In this document: piece by piece, positions 9,477 through 15,898 of the stretch
Position numbering within the stretch: position 1 is the stretch's first letter
How the letters are laid out: every line of letters starts with the position of its first letter
Virus record (IMG/VR): IMGVR_UViG_3300047379_000058
Coordinates: 1-20,544 of that record
Source: a virus
Strand: one strand, 5' to 3'
Length of the DNA: 20,544 nt
The notes under the pieces: model-generated
Seen by the model: the letters and a program-made list of their open reading frames with translations, nothing else
Database searches by the model: none
Told to the model about the DNA's origin: nothing
Made by a program: the position numbers and the translations under genes

Positions 9477-10874
9477 ATGGCAACCTCTTACAACTTAAAT
9501 GACAAGGCGGGTATAAAGAAGAAAGCACCTAAAGATTTAAAACCCACCATCACTGCAATGCTGGCTTCTCTTCCTAGAGGTAAAATGGGAATCTATGCAG
9601 ACGCTATGTGGACTGGATCTAAAAGTAAGCAATGGGGTTTCAAAGTAAATCAAGATGAGATGGAAGCAATCGCTCTCAACTTTGGAGAGAAGATAGGTCC
9701 AAAAGGATTCGTAACAGAAGCGGCAGGATATAGACTAAAATTTATTGCATCTGCTAAGAAGTCTGCAGGTAGTGGTGCGGCAGATGCAAAGACAACTAGA
9801 ATGCAGGAGTTAGGATCTGCCTGGATTTTTAGAAGAGCACTTCAGGATAATGTAAAGTATTCTAAGTGGCAGGACATCATGCAGGATCCAAAGTATTCTG
9901 AGTTGGAAGCAATATATCCTGGTATCAGTGACGAGTGGATTCAAGGATACTATGCTCAACAAAAGAAGATGTTGGAGGTATACTCATCATCTAAGTTTGA
10001 TGAATTCAATAGGGAAGGTGGATTCATGGGTTACATTAGTAACCTAATCAAAGAAAAATTTGGTATATCACAGAAAGATAATTGGAACCCTGCAGACATC
10101 TGGTTGATTCAGAATGAACGATCAGTCAAAGCACTTATTGAAGAGACTGTAGATGGTAATGGTTCTCAAACTATTCTAGAATTGAATGCCGTTCTTAGGA
10201 AGTTGTTTAATGAGGAGAAGGTTGTTGGTGTATCTCTCAAAAAGATTAGTGGTAAGACTGCAAAGTGGCAGAAGTATAATGTAGATGATCTTGGTCTTAC
10301 TGACACATATAACTATGAAACTAAAGAGTTTCAGTGTGATCTTTCTTTGAAGGGTGAAGGGGAGTTTCAATCTCTTGCTGTTCGTGCAATCGTAGAGGGC
10401 AATAACGCTGTTTATAATTTCCAGATTCAGGGCAATGATACTAGTAAGGTATCAAACCTGAAGTTTGAACCTACAGAGAAGGGTGCATCATCTGCCCGTA
10501 TGGGTAAGGCACCAGTTGCTATGGTTGGGATGCTATTGAAAGATGCTAAGGTTGATTTTGAAAATGATCATAAAAAGTATCCCAAAACCTCAGCAGAGTT
10601 TAGTAAAGAGTTTGATGACTATAAAAAAATATACAACAAACTGAAGAGTAAGGGTGTTGAGATGGGAGAAAGTAATGCTGATACTGCACTGGGTAATATA
10701 AGTGCAGTTTTCCTGACTAAACCTCACGCTGCAACTAGTAAACTGATGGGCATGAAGTTTATTCACGCTGTGGTAACAATGCCAAAGAAGAAAAAAGATG
10801 AGTTTATGACTGATATGGTATTCATCGCTGCCAAGAAGGGCAAACGCTTTGGACCGTTCGGCAAACTGTATTGA
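9477..10874 (+). CDS. Conserved 465-aa phage protein, unknown (weak nuclease-like motif)
   Basis: I do not recognise a named family. An N-terminal region (about 1-100) contains ASLPRGKMGIYADAMW. A helical middle follows, then NWNPADIWLI (202-211), and 40 residues later VVGVSLKK (249-256). A core Asp followed by a strand ending in SLK is the spacing seen in some PD-(D/E)xK nuclease folds (D206, K255), but with Ser in place of the usual acidic residue. The C-terminus is a Lys-rich strand set ending in KKGKRFGPFGKLY. No capsid-targeting peptide is present. It opens the inferred virion gene block, 22 bases after the previous stop, and is followed by a terminator-like hairpin. Confidence 0.75.
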   Translation: MATSYNLNDKAGIKKKAPKDLKPTITAMLASLPRGKMGIYADAMWTGSKSKQWGFKVNQDEMEAIALNFGEKIGPKGFVTEAAGYRLKFIASAKKSAGSGAADAKTTRMQELGSAWIFRRALQDNVKYSKWQDIMQDPKYSELEAIYPGISDEWIQGYYAQQKKMLEVYSSSKFDEFNREGGFMGYISNLIKEKFGISQKDNWNPADIWLIQNERSVKALIEETVDGNGSQTILELNAVLRKLFNEEKVVGVSLKKISGKTAKWQKYNVDDLGLTDTYNYETKEFQCDLSLKGEGEFQSLAVRAIVEGNNAVYNFQIQGNDTSKVSNLKFEPTEKGASSARMGKAPVAMVGMLLKDAKVDFENDHKKYPKTSAEFSKEFDDYKKIYNKLKSKGVEMGESNADTALGNISAVFLTKPHAATSKLMGMKFIHAVVTMPKKKKDEFMTDMVFIAAKKGKRFGPFGKLY

Positions 10875-10942: not shown

Positions 10943-11884
10943 ATGCCCAACAAACACCTAGAGCATCCAGAAGACAACATCCTCAACGGGGTGAACCCTT
11001 ATGATGTCTTGGATTCTATGGTGAATTTTGATAAGGTCACTACTAAGTGGGACGGTGCTCCTGCCATTGTGTTTGGATACAATGAAGGTAAGTGGTTTGT
11101 TGGCACTAAGAGTGTATTCAATAAGAAGAAAGTCCTAATCAATTATAGTGTTTCTGATATTGTCAAGAACCACACAGGTAACGTTGCTCAGATACTAACT
11201 GCATGTTTCTATGCACTTCCTCGTACATGCCGTGGAATTTATCAAGCAGACTTCATTGGGTTTGGTGGAAACCTTTACTACAAACCTAATACAGTACTGT
11301 ATCTCTTCCCAGAGATTATGAATCAGGATGTAATTGTTGCTCCTCATACTCTGTACAAAGAGATATCTCCAACAGCACAACAGTATCCTCTTGATCATGT
11401 GGTTGTTCCTGGAACACCTATCCATAACAATAAGTATCGCTTCCTAAGACACAAAGCATCGTTGGTAGTTCCTAAGCGTGCTCGTCTATTGTCTCAGGCA
11501 GCAAAACTTCTGATTCCTTTCTGTAAATTTCCTAAGGGCGATACTTCTACTAGTGCTACTTGTTCCATGCACATCAAGAAGCATGTCAACAAATTTGTTC
11601 GTGCTGGTTATATTCCTAGTGCCTCAGAATTGTACAATACTTTGGACGATAAATATAAGCAGGAAGTTAATACCATGACTTTCCGTTTATATCATATTAT
11701 CCTGAAATTAAAAGATATCCTGCTCTCCTGTGGCGTAGCAGATGAGCCCGTAGAATGTTACATTGAAGGTCAACCAATCAATCATGAGGGGTTTGTTCTT
11801 ACTGGTAAGCACTCTGTGAAATTGGTCAATCGTTTGGAATTCAGTCAGGCAAACTTTAACTCAAATAAGAATTGGAATAAATGA
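10943..11884 (+). CDS. Putative ligase-superfamily nucleotidyltransferase (KxDG motif)
   Basis: The 313-aa product shows the ordered motifs of covalent nucleotidyltransferases (DNA/RNA ligases, capping enzymes). Motif I is TTKWDGAPAIVFG with K35 as candidate AMP-accepting lysine, a motif III-like CRGIYQADFIGFGG is at 96-109, motif IV EGFVL at 282-286, and motif V SVKLVNR at 291-297. The 170 residues between III and IV form an unusually large insert. I recall related marine-phage proteins (start ...HLED/HPED, then KWDGAPA) annotated only as a domain of unknown function. The frame is open back to 10871, but that stretch reads through the terminator hairpin, so ATG 10943 is chosen. Its stop overlaps the ATG of the next nucleotidyltransferase. 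Adenylation activity is inference. Confidence 0.7.
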   Translation: MPNKHLEHPEDNILNGVNPYDVLDSMVNFDKVTTKWDGAPAIVFGYNEGKWFVGTKSVFNKKKVLINYSVSDIVKNHTGNVAQILTACFYALPRTCRGIYQADFIGFGGNLYYKPNTVLYLFPEIMNQDVIVAPHTLYKEISPTAQQYPLDHVVVPGTPIHNNKYRFLRHKASLVVPKRARLLSQAAKLLIPFCKFPKGDTSTSATCSMHIKKHVNKFVRAGYIPSASELYNTLDDKYKQEVNTMTFRLYHIILKLKDILLSCGVADEPVECYIEGQPINHEGFVLTGKHSVKLVNRLEFSQANFNSNKNWNK

Positions 11885-13050
11885 AAAAGTTTAGCGACTT
11901 CTTATCCGAAGCAGCAAAGTCACGAGCGTCGGATGAAGCACAAAAGAGAGGACTAGAGCATGTTGGTTATGGTTACTACGGTCTTGCCGATGGTACTGTA
12001 ACTCACCGATCTCTTAACGGTAAGTTGGTAGAACTTTCTAAGGATCAGCAGGCAGCTAAGAATGGGCAACCACCAGCACAAGAATCAGAACCCCAGTCTA
12101 CAGAAGGCGAAGGTGAGGGCGGAAAAGGTGCGGTGTCTATTACTTTTGGAAGATTCAATCCACCTACTATCGGTCATCAAAAACTCATTGATCGTGTAGC
12201 ACAATCTGCTAAGGGTGGTGAGTATAAAGTATATCCATCAAGGTCTCAAGATCCTAAAAAGAATCCTATTGATCCTGAGACTAAGGTGCATTACATGCGT
12301 CAGATGTATCCTGATCATGCCCATGCCATCACTAATAATGAAGAGTATAAGACTATCTTTGATGTGCTAAAAGGTTTATATAGTGAAGGATATAGTGAAG
12401 TTAATATTGTAGTTGGTGGTGATCGTGTTGCTGAGTTTGATAACCTTGCCAATAAATATAATGGTAAACTGTATGAGTTTGAAGAGATCAATGTAGTATC
12501 TGCTGGTGATAGAGATCCAGATTCTGATGGTGTAGATGGTATGTCTGCATCTAAGATGCGTAAAGCAGCAGCAGACAATGACTTTGCTACTTTCCGTTCT
12601 GGTATTCCTGAAGAACTAACTGATAAAGAAACAAAAGAACTCTTTAATGAAGTTAGATCTTCCATGCAAATGGAATCCTTTGAGGATTTTGCAGATGCAT
12701 CTTATGTTTTACATGAGATTGCACCTAAATTAGATGAGAAATCTCTCAGAGAACACTACTATAATAGTAATGCTTTCCCCGTAGGATCATTCATTGAGAA
12801 TGTAAATACAGGAATTATCGGTAAGGTTGTAAACCGTGGTGCTAATTATGTCATATATATTGATGAGCATGATACTGTCTATAGAGGATGGTTGAAAGAT
12901 CTCACCGAGAAAAATGATATTCATGGGTTTGATTTTACTCCTCAAGGACTAATAGGAACAAGTGAACTATCTCAGTCAGTTGTCAAAATGACACCTGGAC
13001 AATTCATACAAAAGATAAATAAAAGAAATAAGGTCGCTGCCAAGACATGA
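11881..13050 (+). CDS. NMNAT/cytidylyltransferase-like enzyme with T4-type capsid-targeting peptide
   Basis: The 389-aa multidomain protein starts MKKFSDFLSE|AAKS, matching the T4 internal-protein targeting peptide (M-K-x-aromatic-x-acidic-F-aliphatic-x-E|A) at each position. Next comes GYGYYGLADGTVTHRSLNGK (29-48) and a Glu/Gly-rich linker (65-83). The HxGH-type nucleotidyltransferase domain has GRFNPPTIGH (90-99), VVGGDRV (177-183) and MSASKMRKA (221-229), equivalent to the ISSTxxR motif of NMN adenylyltransferases. A C-terminal KOW/SH3-like strand set (300-342) has VGSFIENVNTGIIGKVV and NYVIYIDEHD. Expected chemistry is transfer of AMP or CMP to a phosphorylated substrate, with NAD synthesis one option. 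Packaging into the head is inferred from the N-terminus. Confidence 0.85.
   Translation: MKKFSDFLSEAAKSRASDEAQKRGLEHVGYGYYGLADGTVTHRSLNGKLVELSKDQQAAKNGQPPAQESEPQSTEGEGEGGKGAVSITFGRFNPPTIGHQKLIDRVAQSAKGGEYKVYPSRSQDPKKNPIDPETKVHYMRQMYPDHAHAITNNEEYKTIFDVLKGLYSEGYSEVNIVVGGDRVAEFDNLANKYNGKLYEFEEINVVSAGDRDPDSDGVDGMSASKMRKAAADNDFATFRSGIPEELTDKETKELFNEVRSSMQMESFEDFADASYVLHEIAPKLDEKSLREHYYNSNAFPVGSFIENVNTGIIGKVVNRGANYVIYIDEHDTVYRGWLKDLTEKNDIHGFDFTPQGLIGTSELSQSVVKMTPGQFIQKINKRNKVAAKT
13014..13021 (+). promoter_or_regulatory. Possible late promoter (GATAAATA) before the 596-aa gene
   Basis: GATAAATA fits NATAAATA and ends 25 bases before ATG 13047, a spacing like that of the stronger site at 16160. It lies inside the 3' end of the upstream gene, where A-rich Lys/Asn codons make the motif likely by chance, so support is weak. 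Confidence 0.25.
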
Positions 13051-14837
13051 ACCTCAACGAACTACCAGACATGACCGACGCCTTACGGCAGGTCTATGAA
13101 AAGAAAAACAATGATGGCAATCTTGCCAATAATGCTGTCCCTTATGACAAGGTAACTAAAGCTGATATCATCACAGGTGCCAAAGGCAAGGATGAGCAAG
13201 GCGGAAAAAAGAAACCTAAGGGTCATGACTGCGCCAAACAGGTAAAGTATGAAGGTAAGGAGTACTCAGTTATTCCCGAAGCACATACTCTCTTGGAAGA
13301 TGGTACTGTAACTCATTACGATATTGAAGATGAGGAGTACATCTATGAGAACGTTCCTGTTGAAGATCTTGAGATTCTGATTTCTGAGAAGCACGAGCAC
13401 TTCGCCAACTATGATAAGAACGCTGAGGTTCTTGGTGAAGCAATCACCAGTGAAAAGGGTAAAGCAAAACTGAAATCTATGCTTGATGCTCGCACCACTG
13501 CTGCTGGTAGAGCAAAATCAGGTAAAGGTCAAAACGTTAAAGATATTCAGCATATTGGTCGTGCTAATGTTGATGGTCTCGGAGGAACACCACCTAACCG
13601 AAAAACTGCTAAAAATCCAATTAAGTCTAGGCATTATGGTGGAACTGGAAACAAAGCAGCAAAAAGAGCAGACGCCTTAACCAAGAAAGAAGAGGTTGAA
13701 TTTGATGAGGCAATGTCATCTTACGATAAGAATCGTAAGAGAGCAGCACAAAGAGCAGCAGACAGAAACGCAGCAAGAGCAGCAGGTAAAACTGGTGTAG
13801 TCCCTGGTGTGGGTTATGTAACTGCTAGAAAAGAGAAAGAAACATACACTGACGAGAAAGGAACTGTCCGTCATAAGTCTGGTGCTAAGAACGAAGCATT
13901 TGCATTCTCAGAAGCAGACTTTGCTGAGTTGGAAACTCTTGGAGCAGAGATTGATGCACTGACTGATGAGCAACTCATTGATGTCATGGAAGAAATCATT
14001 CTTGAGATGGCACAAGATGATCAAGACTTGATTGAAATCTGTGAGCATCTTGAGACTGTTGAAGTCTTGGACGAAAGAATGGATCCTAAGGAGATCCAAC
14101 GTCGTAGAGATCAGGCAAAGGATAGACTATCCACTGGTGCATCCATGAAGAAGGCAGCAGCAAAATCTGATTCTGCTCCTGCTTCTGCTGGTCCTTCCCG
14201 TATGGATCGTCTGAAGAGTGCTGCTAAGAAAGCAGGTAGTGCTATTAAATCTGGTGCTAAGAAGGTTGGTAAGAAGGCAGTACAGACTGCTGGTAAAGTT
14301 GCTGGTGAATTCTCTGCATCCAAAGAGAAGCAGAAGTCTGCATCAATGGAGAGAGAACCTAAGGAACCAAAAGAAGCACCTAAGAAATCATCTGGTGTAA
14401 CAAGATCTACAGTACCTTCTAGTAGTGCTGGCGGTGGCGGATCATCGTCTGGTGGCGGGAGTAGTGAGAGTGGTAGCACACGTAAGGCCGTTGGTGGTGC
14501 GTTGAGAAAAGTTGGTTCACTTCTTAAGAAGGGAGTCAAGAAGGCAGTTGGTAAGACATCACGTCTGGTATCCAAGGGTAGCGATAAACTCGCCAAGCGT
14601 CTCGGTGAAGAGTATGATGAGATTGCAAGTCTCTATGAGTCTGGACTGTTTACTATTGAAGAGATTGAGAACATCGTAGAGGAGAAGAAGCCTTTGCCTA
14701 AGAACAAAATGTTCCGTAAGGCAGGTAACCTAGGTCGTGAAGTTGTAAGTCCTTCTGTGACTGATGACCAGCGTCAAAAAGCATATGATCGTTCTAAGAA
14801 GATCGTTAAGACCTTGAACAAGGAGAACCAAAAGTGA
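13047..14837 (+). CDS. Large Lys/Ala-rich protein, putative internal head or scaffold protein
   Basis: The 596-aa product has several low-complexity parts. MNLNELPDMTDALRQVYEKK at the N-terminus is a likely helix. Then come LLEDGTVTHYDI (82-93), shared with the upstream enzyme, and EHFANYDKNAEVLGEA (117-132). A basic Ala/Arg region (228-248) is followed by an acidic helical segment (285-345), Lys/Ala repeats (385-425 and 479-520), and a Ser/Gly linker (450-478). Many (I/L)xE triplets (for example LISE, VLGE) could be prohead-protease sites. Composition fits a DNA-associated or core protein of the prohead, but no known family is recognised. Its start overlaps the previous stop (ATGA). Confidence 0.72.
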   Translation: MNLNELPDMTDALRQVYEKKNNDGNLANNAVPYDKVTKADIITGAKGKDEQGGKKKPKGHDCAKQVKYEGKEYSVIPEAHTLLEDGTVTHYDIEDEEYIYENVPVEDLEILISEKHEHFANYDKNAEVLGEAITSEKGKAKLKSMLDARTTAAGRAKSGKGQNVKDIQHIGRANVDGLGGTPPNRKTAKNPIKSRHYGGTGNKAAKRADALTKKEEVEFDEAMSSYDKNRKRAAQRAADRNAARAAGKTGVVPGVGYVTARKEKETYTDEKGTVRHKSGAKNEAFAFSEADFAELETLGAEIDALTDEQLIDVMEEIILEMAQDDQDLIEICEHLETVEVLDERMDPKEIQRRRDQAKDRLSTGASMKKAAAKSDSAPASAGPSRMDRLKSAAKKAGSAIKSGAKKVGKKAVQTAGKVAGEFSASKEKQKSASMEREPKEPKEAPKKSSGVTRSTVPSSSAGGGGSSSGGGSSESGSTRKAVGGALRKVGSLLKKGVKKAVGKTSRLVSKGSDKLAKRLGEEYDEIASLYESGLFTIEEIENIVEEKKPLPKNKMFRKAGNLGREVVSPSVTDDQRQKAYDRSKKIVKTLNKENQK

Positions 14838-15898
14838 TGCTAAACTTTAATGCATACTTGGAGGAAAAGAAATCCAAGATTAAGCTCAACCCTAAGAAGG
14901 ATGATCTTATGGAAAAGTGCTGCGATAAGACAGGTGAAGCAGAGTGTAAATGTGAAGACAAGACACCTGCACAAAAATCAGTTGCAGGTAAAGGTAAAAT
15001 GTGTCCTAAGTGCGAAGGCAAAGGATGCAAGCATTGTGGTGGCACAGGCTACCATGATGAAGATGGCGAAGGTGCCGACATGAGCGAAGCGAAAAAGAAA
15101 GACGATTCTTATCTGGAGGTGGACCCCAAGAAGCGTCAAAAGAATAATGAGAAAGCTCGTAAAGAGATGGACAAAGTTCCATCCCAAAAAAATCCTCACT
15201 TTGAATCTACAGGAGACCAAGCGTATGGCAGTCAAGAAGAAGTTTCAGAAGAAAGCACAGAAGAAGTCGCAGAAACTGAAAACACACTCTTGACATTTGC
15301 CGAACTCTATAAGGGTAAGCACGGTCAGTCTGAGAAAGAGTATCAAGACGGTCGCTCACAGGGCGGCAAGATGGTCTCTGGTGACTCTAAAGGTAGCGGT
15401 GCAAAATACTCTCATGGTAGAAGAGTTGACGACGGTGGTGCTGGTCCACAACCTGCTGGTGGTTCTAAGAAACCAAAGGCACAAGGTAGAATGGACAAAG
15501 GTGGTCGTGCCGAACTGCAAATGCGTAAGGCAAACCTGAAAGCAAAGAATGAATCAATGGATTACCTTAAGGATAATCTTGTTGATGCTGCGTTTGAACT
15601 CTATGAGCGTACACGTTATGCTAAAGAGACTGGTAAGGATCCTCAGACTGGTAAACCATCCGAGAAGGGTGGTACTATCAAACCTGGATCTGCTATGTCA
15701 AAGGTTCGTAAGAGTCTTGCTGGTCAGGGTTTGATGTCTTCCAGAAAGAAAGCGATTCAACCTCAGGGTAAGAAGAAAGAAAAGGGCAAGAAAGGTTACG
15801 AAGGTCCAACACCTGTTGATAAGATCAAGGGTAATCTTTCACGCAAGAGAGCACCTAAACCTAATCCTTACAAAGCAAGACCTGGCGAATCGGATTGA
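14837..15898 (+). CDS. Zinc-motif protein with T4-type capsid-targeting peptide
   Basis: The 353-aa product starts MLNFNAYLEE|KKSK, matching the T4 targeting pattern (aromatic at 4 and 7, aliphatic at 8, Glu at 10). A Cys-rich part follows: CCDKTGEAECKC (28-39), then CPKCEGKGCKHCGGTG (56-71). The latter combines two CxxC pairs and resembles the DnaJ CxxCxGxG zinc repeat. The rest is acidic (STGDQAYGSQEEVSEESTEE) and then Gly/Lys-rich and basic up to KPNPYKARPGESD. AAGGAG at 14820-14825 is 11 bases from this ATG and eight from a GTG at 14834, which would add one Met. It probably acts as a structural or nucleic-acid-binding protein inside the head. Confidence 0.75.
   Translation: MLNFNAYLEEKKSKIKLNPKKDDLMEKCCDKTGEAECKCEDKTPAQKSVAGKGKMCPKCEGKGCKHCGGTGYHDEDGEGADMSEAKKKDDSYLEVDPKKRQKNNEKARKEMDKVPSQKNPHFESTGDQAYGSQEEVSEESTEEVAETENTLLTFAELYKGKHGQSEKEYQDGRSQGGKMVSGDSKGSGAKYSHGRRVDDGGAGPQPAGGSKKPKAQGRMDKGGRAELQMRKANLKAKNESMDYLKDNLVDAAFELYERTRYAKETGKDPQTGKPSEKGGTIKPGSAMSKVRKSLAGQGLMSSRKKAIQPQGKKKEKGKKGYEGPTPVDKIKGNLSRKRAPKPNPYKARPGESD

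Follow-up and report, generated by a model that had tools for sequence, protein, structure and literature searches.

In bacteriophage T4, the first ten residues of the internal protein IPIII suffice for its packaging; within this capsid-targeting sequence (CTS), residues 4 and 7 serve targeting and residues 8 and 10 processing, and a CTS with Asp at position 10 is targeted and stays uncut (PMC9026906). For T-even phages, CTS-like N-termini have already been published for a variety of internal proteins, and T4 Alt is an enzyme that is packed in the head and then ejected (PMC9026906, for T4). For the enzymes among MuF- and portal-fused effectors and polyvalent proteins, too, loading into the phage head is assumed (PMC9503650), in their case by fusion to a head protein or as inferred from gene context. 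Here we describe a nucleotidyltransferase gene that instead begins with a ten-residue, CTS-like tag. It lies in a 20,544-nucleotide stretch of viral DNA (IMG/VR record IMGVR_UViG_3300047379_000058, positions 1 to 20,544; hereafter the window). To judge by its sequence, the window belongs to Synechococcus phage ACG-2014d or to a very close relative of it; 48 of the 536 phage records with a homologue match it at ≥99% identity, and its gene order (gp43, uvsX, gp41, mazG ... gp61) is that of NC_026923.

The open reading frame (ORF) at 11881-13050 on the plus strand encodes 389 residues plus a stop and starts MKKFSDFLSEAAKSRASDEAQ, with the N-terminus MKKFSDFLSE|A. The codon directly 5′ of its ATG is an in-frame TAA and the second Met comes only at residue 139, which leaves the start unambiguous; the initial annotation had placed both the ORF and its start exactly. 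A phrog_455 profile that spans the upstream DUF6267 protein and the enzyme suggested that the enzyme is part of a DUF6267 fusion. We rejected this: the enzyme is a gene of its own in the annotated stretches read, and the peptide is therefore a true N-terminus. The ORF and its parts are as follows.

11881..13050, plus strand: tagged nucleotidyltransferase ORF of the phrog_395 / T4-GC190 family (T4-GC190 label from the S-ShM2 and P-SSM4 orthologue records)
11881..11910, plus strand: CTS-like decapeptide MKKFSDFLSE, with a predicted cut after E10, before A11
11917..12036, plus strand: second mobile module, residues 13-52, common to record-labelled virion kinases and phrog_3561 proteins
12127..12666, plus strand: HIGH-superfamily nucleotidyltransferase core, residues 83-262
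12145..12177, plus strand: FGRFNPPTIGH nucleotide-binding motif (TxGH)
12541..12561, plus strand: MSASKMR motif (ISSTxxR equivalent)
12775..12915, plus strand: C-terminal small beta domain, about residues 299-345

The peptide satisfies all four functional positions of the T4 CTS, with F4 and F7 at the targeting positions and L8 and E10 at the processing positions. Like the CTS of T4 IPI, IPII and IPIII it is a ten-residue N-terminal peptide, and it has the aromatic residues 4 and 7, the aliphatic residue 8, E10 and A11 of ipII and ipIII, both of which start MKTYQEFIAE|A. The initial annotation had given that peptide for T4 internal head proteins at large; this is right for ipII and ipIII, and the starts of other internal proteins, MKTFKEFTSTTTPVSTITEA and MELITELFDE, differ. 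We take the first of these to be IPI and the second Alt, an ADP-ribosyltransferase; the record itself does not give these names. The locus differs from the T4 systems in that the tag stands on a 389-residue cyanophage enzyme family with a second mobile module behind it, and in that packaging and cleavage are predicted here. We put the probability that the N-terminal peptide is a working T4-type CTS, as the initial annotation had proposed from the sequence, at roughly 0.85. This reading is supported by the tag positions, by conservation of the tag in homologues, by unrelated virion proteins that carry it and by the presence of orthologues in virions.

In the mechanism that we infer, the aromatic residues F4 and F7 would bring the enzyme into the prohead core during assembly, and the prohead protease, a gp21 homologue, would cut after E10 at an LxE-type site like that of the major capsid protein. 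The 379-residue remainder, consisting of the small module, the HIGH-superfamily nucleotidyltransferase domain and the small beta domain, would stay in the head and be ejected with the DNA. Ejection and early action of the enzyme are likely; it would then make NAD early in infection, with nicotinamide mononucleotide (NMN) or nicotinate mononucleotide (NaMN) as the most likely substrate. On the protease side, ACG-2014d encodes homologues of gp21, gp22 and gp23. In T4 gp23, E65-A66 lies within FLTEA, and A66 is the start of the mature protein. When ten gp23 sequences of Kyanoviridae-type phages are aligned, eight carry LxE where T4 has E65 (LTEA in ACG-2014d), and in the two others, from S-CRM01 and S-SCSM1, FLAEA stands six columns later; this alignment leaves out S-CREM2, the query, and Syn9.

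In line with the initial annotation, most homologues of the enzyme keep the first ten residues. The 117 IMG/VR loci that we collected hold 117 ORFs of the family, 115 of them with a complete 5′ end; 80 of these loci are the best 80 of 597 relatives and lean to close relatives. The tag pattern is present in 106/115 when the best candidate start is taken, that is, when a tag-matching start is preferred where one exists, in 98/115 by the first start codon only and in 93 by the first Met. Seven of the remaining nine have a peptide one residue shorter and two lack E10. Among non-redundant N-termini the tag is found in 44 of 47, and in these 44 two positions that the pattern leaves free are conserved as well, K2 (44/44) and A11 (38/44), while positions 3, 5, 6, 9, 12 and 13 vary. 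F4, F7, E10 and A11 are at least 90% conserved in a 13-row alignment; in a 30-row alignment this is so for F7, E10 and A11 and not for F4. The stretch between tag and catalytic core is nearly gone in S-CRM01, S-CREM2 and P-TIM40 (13-row alignment), and the S-CRM01 and S-CREM2 homologues keep the tag despite this loss.

We searched every candidate start in 13 complete phage genomes (T4 and 12 of Kyanoviridae type; S-H38 minus its last 224 bases) with an anchored pattern of [FYWL] at residue 4, [FYL] at 7, [LIVMF] at 8 and E at 10. T4 gave 3 matches in 689 starts versus 0.54 expected, namely ipII, ipIII and gp61.1; the presumed IPI and Alt were missed, and the pattern is therefore stricter than biology. 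There were 2 matches among the 591 candidate starts of ACG-2014d versus 0.26 expected, and 25 among the 7,353 of the twelve Kyanoviridae-type genomes together versus 3.97 expected, where matches in related phages are not independent of each other. Orthologues of the window ORF make up nine of these 25 (S-SM1, ACG-2014d, P-SSM4, S-CRM01, S-ShM2, Syn9, S-SCSM1, S-H38 and S-CREM2). The other 16 still exceed expectation (Poisson p 4e-6, kinship between phages ignored), and three of them, two in S-H38 and one in S-CREM2, look like chance. The Melnitz match is a protein other than the orthologue. No candidate start in HTVC008M or P-TIM40 matched the anchored pattern; the P-TIM40 orthologue starts MRFLDFIKEA, a peptide shorter by one residue. 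In a pattern-free BLOSUM62 ranking against T4 MKTYQEFIAEA, the window ORF came first of the 591 ACG-2014d starts, and the orthologue headed the list in 7 of the 12 genomes. Its rank was 2 in S-SCSM1, 3 in S-CRM01, 4 in HTVC008M and 6 in Melnitz, and in P-TIM40 it fell outside the top six.

Two small proteins came to notice alongside these scans. T4 gp61.1 (NC_000866 18966-19130), an uncharacterised protein of 54 residues, starts MKTFKEFIKED, which fits the CTS pattern; on this sequence, it may belong to the internal head proteins without having been recognised as one. SSCSM1_93 (L135 5127-5336), a small virion-labelled protein, has a CTS-like RTFKEFLEYIE at its C-terminus.

Orthologues of the enzyme have been found in virions. 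The T4-GC190 product was detected in S-SM1 virions, having previously gone undetected in those of S-PM2 (PMC3037559), and orthologues were detected in virions of S-SCSM1 (PMC9602691) and S-CREM2 (PMC10665884). For orthologues, mass spectrometry is thus in line with the packaging proposed in the initial annotation in three phages and not in S-PM2. All three virion proteins, called NMNAT-like (nicotinamide mononucleotide adenylyltransferase-like), align as homologues of the window ORF, that of S-SM1 also carrying the T4-GC190 label, and the S-SCSM1 protein, labelled as a virion protein, starts MKSFLQFLKEA. A further virion NMNAT named in papers, that of S-CBWM1, was not found with the enzyme profile. 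T4-GC190 has been described as a cyanophage core gene present in virions without a known reason (PMC10665884, PMC3037559). In their available text, the papers on the three virion NMNATs report presence and make no mention of an N-terminal targeting peptide, and the words 'N-terminal' and 'targeting' are absent from the main text of the S-CREM2 paper (PMC10665884). Among the titles and opening lines of abstracts listed by searches of open-licence papers there was no report of a CTS-like tag in cyanophages, and 'capsid targeting' with 'cyanophage' led to the T4 review only. Virion presence of the family was thus known before, and for the tag in cyanophages we found no earlier report.

The S-CREM2 virion proteome, 52 proteins with coordinates (Table 3 of PMC10665884), allowed us to compare tagged and untagged proteins of one phage. 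With annotated starts, 5/52 virion proteins carry the anchored tag versus 1/167 others (Fisher p 0.003, or 0.011 when ORF154, of the seed family, is left out). The five are the S-adenosylmethionine (SAM) hydrolase ORF6, ORF13, the APH-like kinase ORF14, ORF136 and the cytidylyltransferase ORF154, and the sole tagged non-virion protein is a 55-residue ORF. An unanchored test gave 4/52 versus 1/167 (p 0.012), and a looser one 5/52 versus 3/167 (p 0.02). The 47 untagged virion proteins include 24 structural proteins, both endolysins, 20 of the 22 unknowns and an enzyme labelled 'Cas9' (ORF12), which has a tag-like peptide at residues 16-25, away from its start. The 'Cas9' label itself (L015 7704-10313) looks doubtful on sequence grounds: the body of ORF12 matches phrog_3561, and Pfam gives nothing for this protein at E 0.05. 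In S-CRM01, a kinase-labelled protein starts MISFDQFLSEKK; it is presumably the kinase reported in S-CRM01 virions (PMC10665884). These 'kinase' names are record labels, the Pfam kinase matches being below cut-off.

Unrelated proteins headed by the same peptide, with the functional positions of the T4 CTS kept, argue against a different account, in which the peptide forms a conserved amphipathic helix for some other purpose (folding or partner binding), its likeness to a CTS is due to chance or convergence and the virion finds are contaminants. AlphaFold2 does place a helix at residues 4-11, at low confidence, and the low virion peptide counts for the S-CREM2 orthologue (PMC10665884) would suit contamination. 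The recovery of ipII and ipIII by the scan and the enrichment of the tag among S-CREM2 virion proteins speak the other way, and we regard this account as very improbable.

Several observations weigh against a working CTS. The product is the one that went undetected in S-PM2 virions, and the S-CREM2 orthologue is represented by 3 unique peptides only, for which the authors could not exclude co-purification (PMC10665884). The S-CAM3 homologue, as annotated, has no tag, those of S-CAM9 and HTVC008M have degenerate tags, and to these come the two IMG/VR homologues without E10. S-SCSM1 protein 30 has a matching start and no virion label. The remainder of the window enzyme contains eight more [LI]xE strings, which the protease would have to spare. 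Finally, we scanned four cyanophages outside the T4 group as a control, namely S-CBWM1, S-TIM5, P-SS2 and P-SSP7. They gave 2 matches in 1,553 starts versus 0.87 expected. S-TIM5 accounts for both matches (its own expectation is 0.27), and one of the two is tag-like, a protein of 372 residues (NC_019516 52035-53153, minus strand) with the start MKIYSNFLLEE; the tag may therefore not be confined to the T4 group. S-CBWM1, which has been called non-T4 (PMC10665884), has no start that fits the tag pattern.

The T4-type tag recurs on other families. With the S-CREM2 SAM lyase as query, the best 80 of 335 loci, which lean to close relatives, have it in 58/76 complete N-termini (54/76 by first ATG only), and the targeting half, aromatic 4 with F7, in 67/76; many of these starts are nearly T4's own, such as MKTYKEFISEA and MKTFQEFMIEA. 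Non-enzyme ORFs of the 117 loci gave 16 tag matches, 11 of them distinct, versus 2.6 expected. A DNA-pattern scan of IMG/VR for MK(S/T/R)(F/Y)xxF(aliphatic)xEA matched at least 120 stretches, and a control with permuted positions matched 22 in the whole collection. This control keeps F7, aliphatic 8 and A11, and several of the 22 look like tags (MKTYYQFLEEA, MKSFFQFLESA), so that it overstates chance. Among the 125 matches listed, 123 stand at the start of an ORF of 45 codons or more. Compared without their first 12 residues, these ORFs form 45 clusters, and 50 of the tagged ORFs fit the profile of this nucleotidyltransferase. The loci of this census were selected for ATG, and a first-codon count there is no independent control. 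Residues 5 and 6, which the pattern leaves free, are K/Q in 22/45 and E/Q in 36/45, as in T4. Pfam searches with 20 of the 45 cluster representatives gave four at the curated cut-off, DUF6267, DUF5661, DPBB_1 and GNAT, the tagged DUF6267 protein being of the same family as the gene directly upstream in the window. An IMG/VR scan found no relatives of the S-CREM2 kinase, and one for relatives of an ACG-2014f protein of 892 residues found one locus. The tagged protein L364 1211-1858 and the control matches L453, L455 and L463 have a VLRTxHYT string, which to us resembles ADP-ribosyltransferases; L364 has no Pfam match.

Residues 13-52, directly behind the tag, form a small domain of about 40 residues, which an iterated profile finds on 17 proteins in a set of the 13 genomes plus seven hand-added likely proteins, six of which carry it. 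The carriers are nucleotidyltransferases, the kinase-labelled proteins of S-CREM2 (two copies) and S-CRM01, S-CREM2 ORF12, an S-CRM01 protein of 183 residues and large proteins of ACG-2014f and RN05-S. By eye, the module stands directly behind the tag in 12 of the 17 and further in for three; a clean tag is missing from the S-CAM9 carrier and from the 859-residue RN05-S protein. Of the 111 ORFs with the module in the 117 loci, 110 are this enzyme. The module is absent from the tagged S-CREM2 ORF6, ORF13 and ORF136 and from 80 SAM lyase ORFs, and the tag therefore does not need it.

The intact HxGH/ISSTxxR-type domain of the initial annotation is present, as TxGH (FGRFNPPTIGH) and MSASKMR; motifs of this kind are known as (H/T)xGH and ISSTxxR-type. 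PF01467 matches with 25.4 bits versus a curated cut-off of 21. Three sequences in the 13-row alignment have H instead of T at the TxGH position, and the motif residues are otherwise invariant across 13 and 30 aligned rows (T96 being T or H). The AlphaFold2 model (mean pLDDT 71, pTM 0.48; residues 1-13 below 50) places the core at about residues 83-262 and the small beta domain near residues 304-343. Its best Foldseek match is NadD 8aii (E 1.6e-5, TM by target 0.63), and a sequence search of solved structures gave one match, at E 0.081 only.

The initial annotation had further named the conversion of NMN and ATP to NAD as the activity to look for. The HIGH-superfamily fold and motifs stand, with NadD closest, and no curated NMNAT model reached its cut-off (TIGR00482 19.2 versus 112.45, TIGR01526 16.5 versus 341.15 and NF006479 16.5 versus 164 bits). 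We give odds slightly short of even to action on another substrate, a phosphosugar or phosphopantetheine, to which these low NCBIfam scores would point, as would the phosphopantetheine adenylyltransferase structures that come soon after NadD among the fold matches. Two findings count against it: the top seven fold matches are all NadD-type, and a gene annotated as NAD synthetase lies downstream in the ACG-2014d record. Transfer of nucleoside monophosphates to phosphosugars has been proposed for some cyanophage HIGH-superfamily enzymes (PMC7824862). Fold and motifs thus point weakly to an NMN/NAD role, with NMN or NaMN as our lead. An injected NAD enzyme is plausible, since some phages are thought to rebuild NAD against an NAD-depleting defence (PMC9503650).

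The genes around the ORF are as follows.

9477..10874, plus strand: phrog_1462 protein, untagged, with a weak blastp match (E 2.7e-5) to S-SCSM1 virion-labelled protein 90
10943..11884, plus strand: DUF6267 protein directly upstream, its stop overlapping the ATG at 11881, untagged in the window
13047..14837, plus strand: phrog_764 protein, labelled 'cytidyltransferase' in NC_026923 and PHROGs, untagged in the window
14837..15898, plus strand: phrog_1418 protein with the tag-like start MLNFNAYLEE

The phrog_1418 protein has stretches in common with S-SCSM1 virion-labelled proteins 89 and 92. DUF6267 proteins elsewhere are tagged (L443, MKRFKSFVVEA) or tag-like (Melnitz), and the strings KWDGAP and EGFVL of the DUF6267 neighbour recall, in our view, covalent nucleotidyltransferases (ligases). 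The 'cytidyltransferase' label of the phrog_764 protein is probably carried over, and the protein has no Pfam match at E 0.1. The late promoter motif ATAAATA occurs 9 times in the window versus 4.2 expected and not just 5′ of 11881, and therefore gives no support for late expression.

Other genes of this cluster fit head-protein families or carry a virion label in S-SCSM1, which would suit a variant in which the peptide is a CTS and the enzyme acts in assembly or as core filler like IPIII, its ejection being without a role. T4 IPIII does act in assembly, and what it does once injected is unsettled (PMC9026906). Against this variant stand the invariant motif residues and the other tagged proteins, which include enzymes such as the SAM lyase; we consider it unlikely.

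Beyond the enzyme, we lean towards the view that the T4-type CTS serves marine T4-like phages in general as an exchangeable loading tag, by which dozens of unrelated proteins would enter the head, and that in cyanophages the module of about 40 residues is a second, co-travelling loading or ejection part. Such a tag would cover the nucleotidyltransferase, kinase-labelled proteins, SAM lyase, GNAT, DUF6267, DUF5661, DPBB and large phrog_3561 proteins. It is known that restriction can be blunted by removing SAM (PMC10665884). For the nucleotidyltransferase, a T4-type tag would explain the virion presence of the T4-GC190 product and predicts an exact cleaved N-terminus, AAKSR... It further indicates a set of cargoes, the SAM lyase family among them, and a small module common to several of these. 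A common tag on unrelated proteins of related ocean viruses suggests a common way to pack enzymes with viral DNA. It would give a sequence rule to predict the head-borne, first-entering proteins of uncultured ocean phages, and, if the tag is general, the head contents of an uncultured phage could be read from N-termini.

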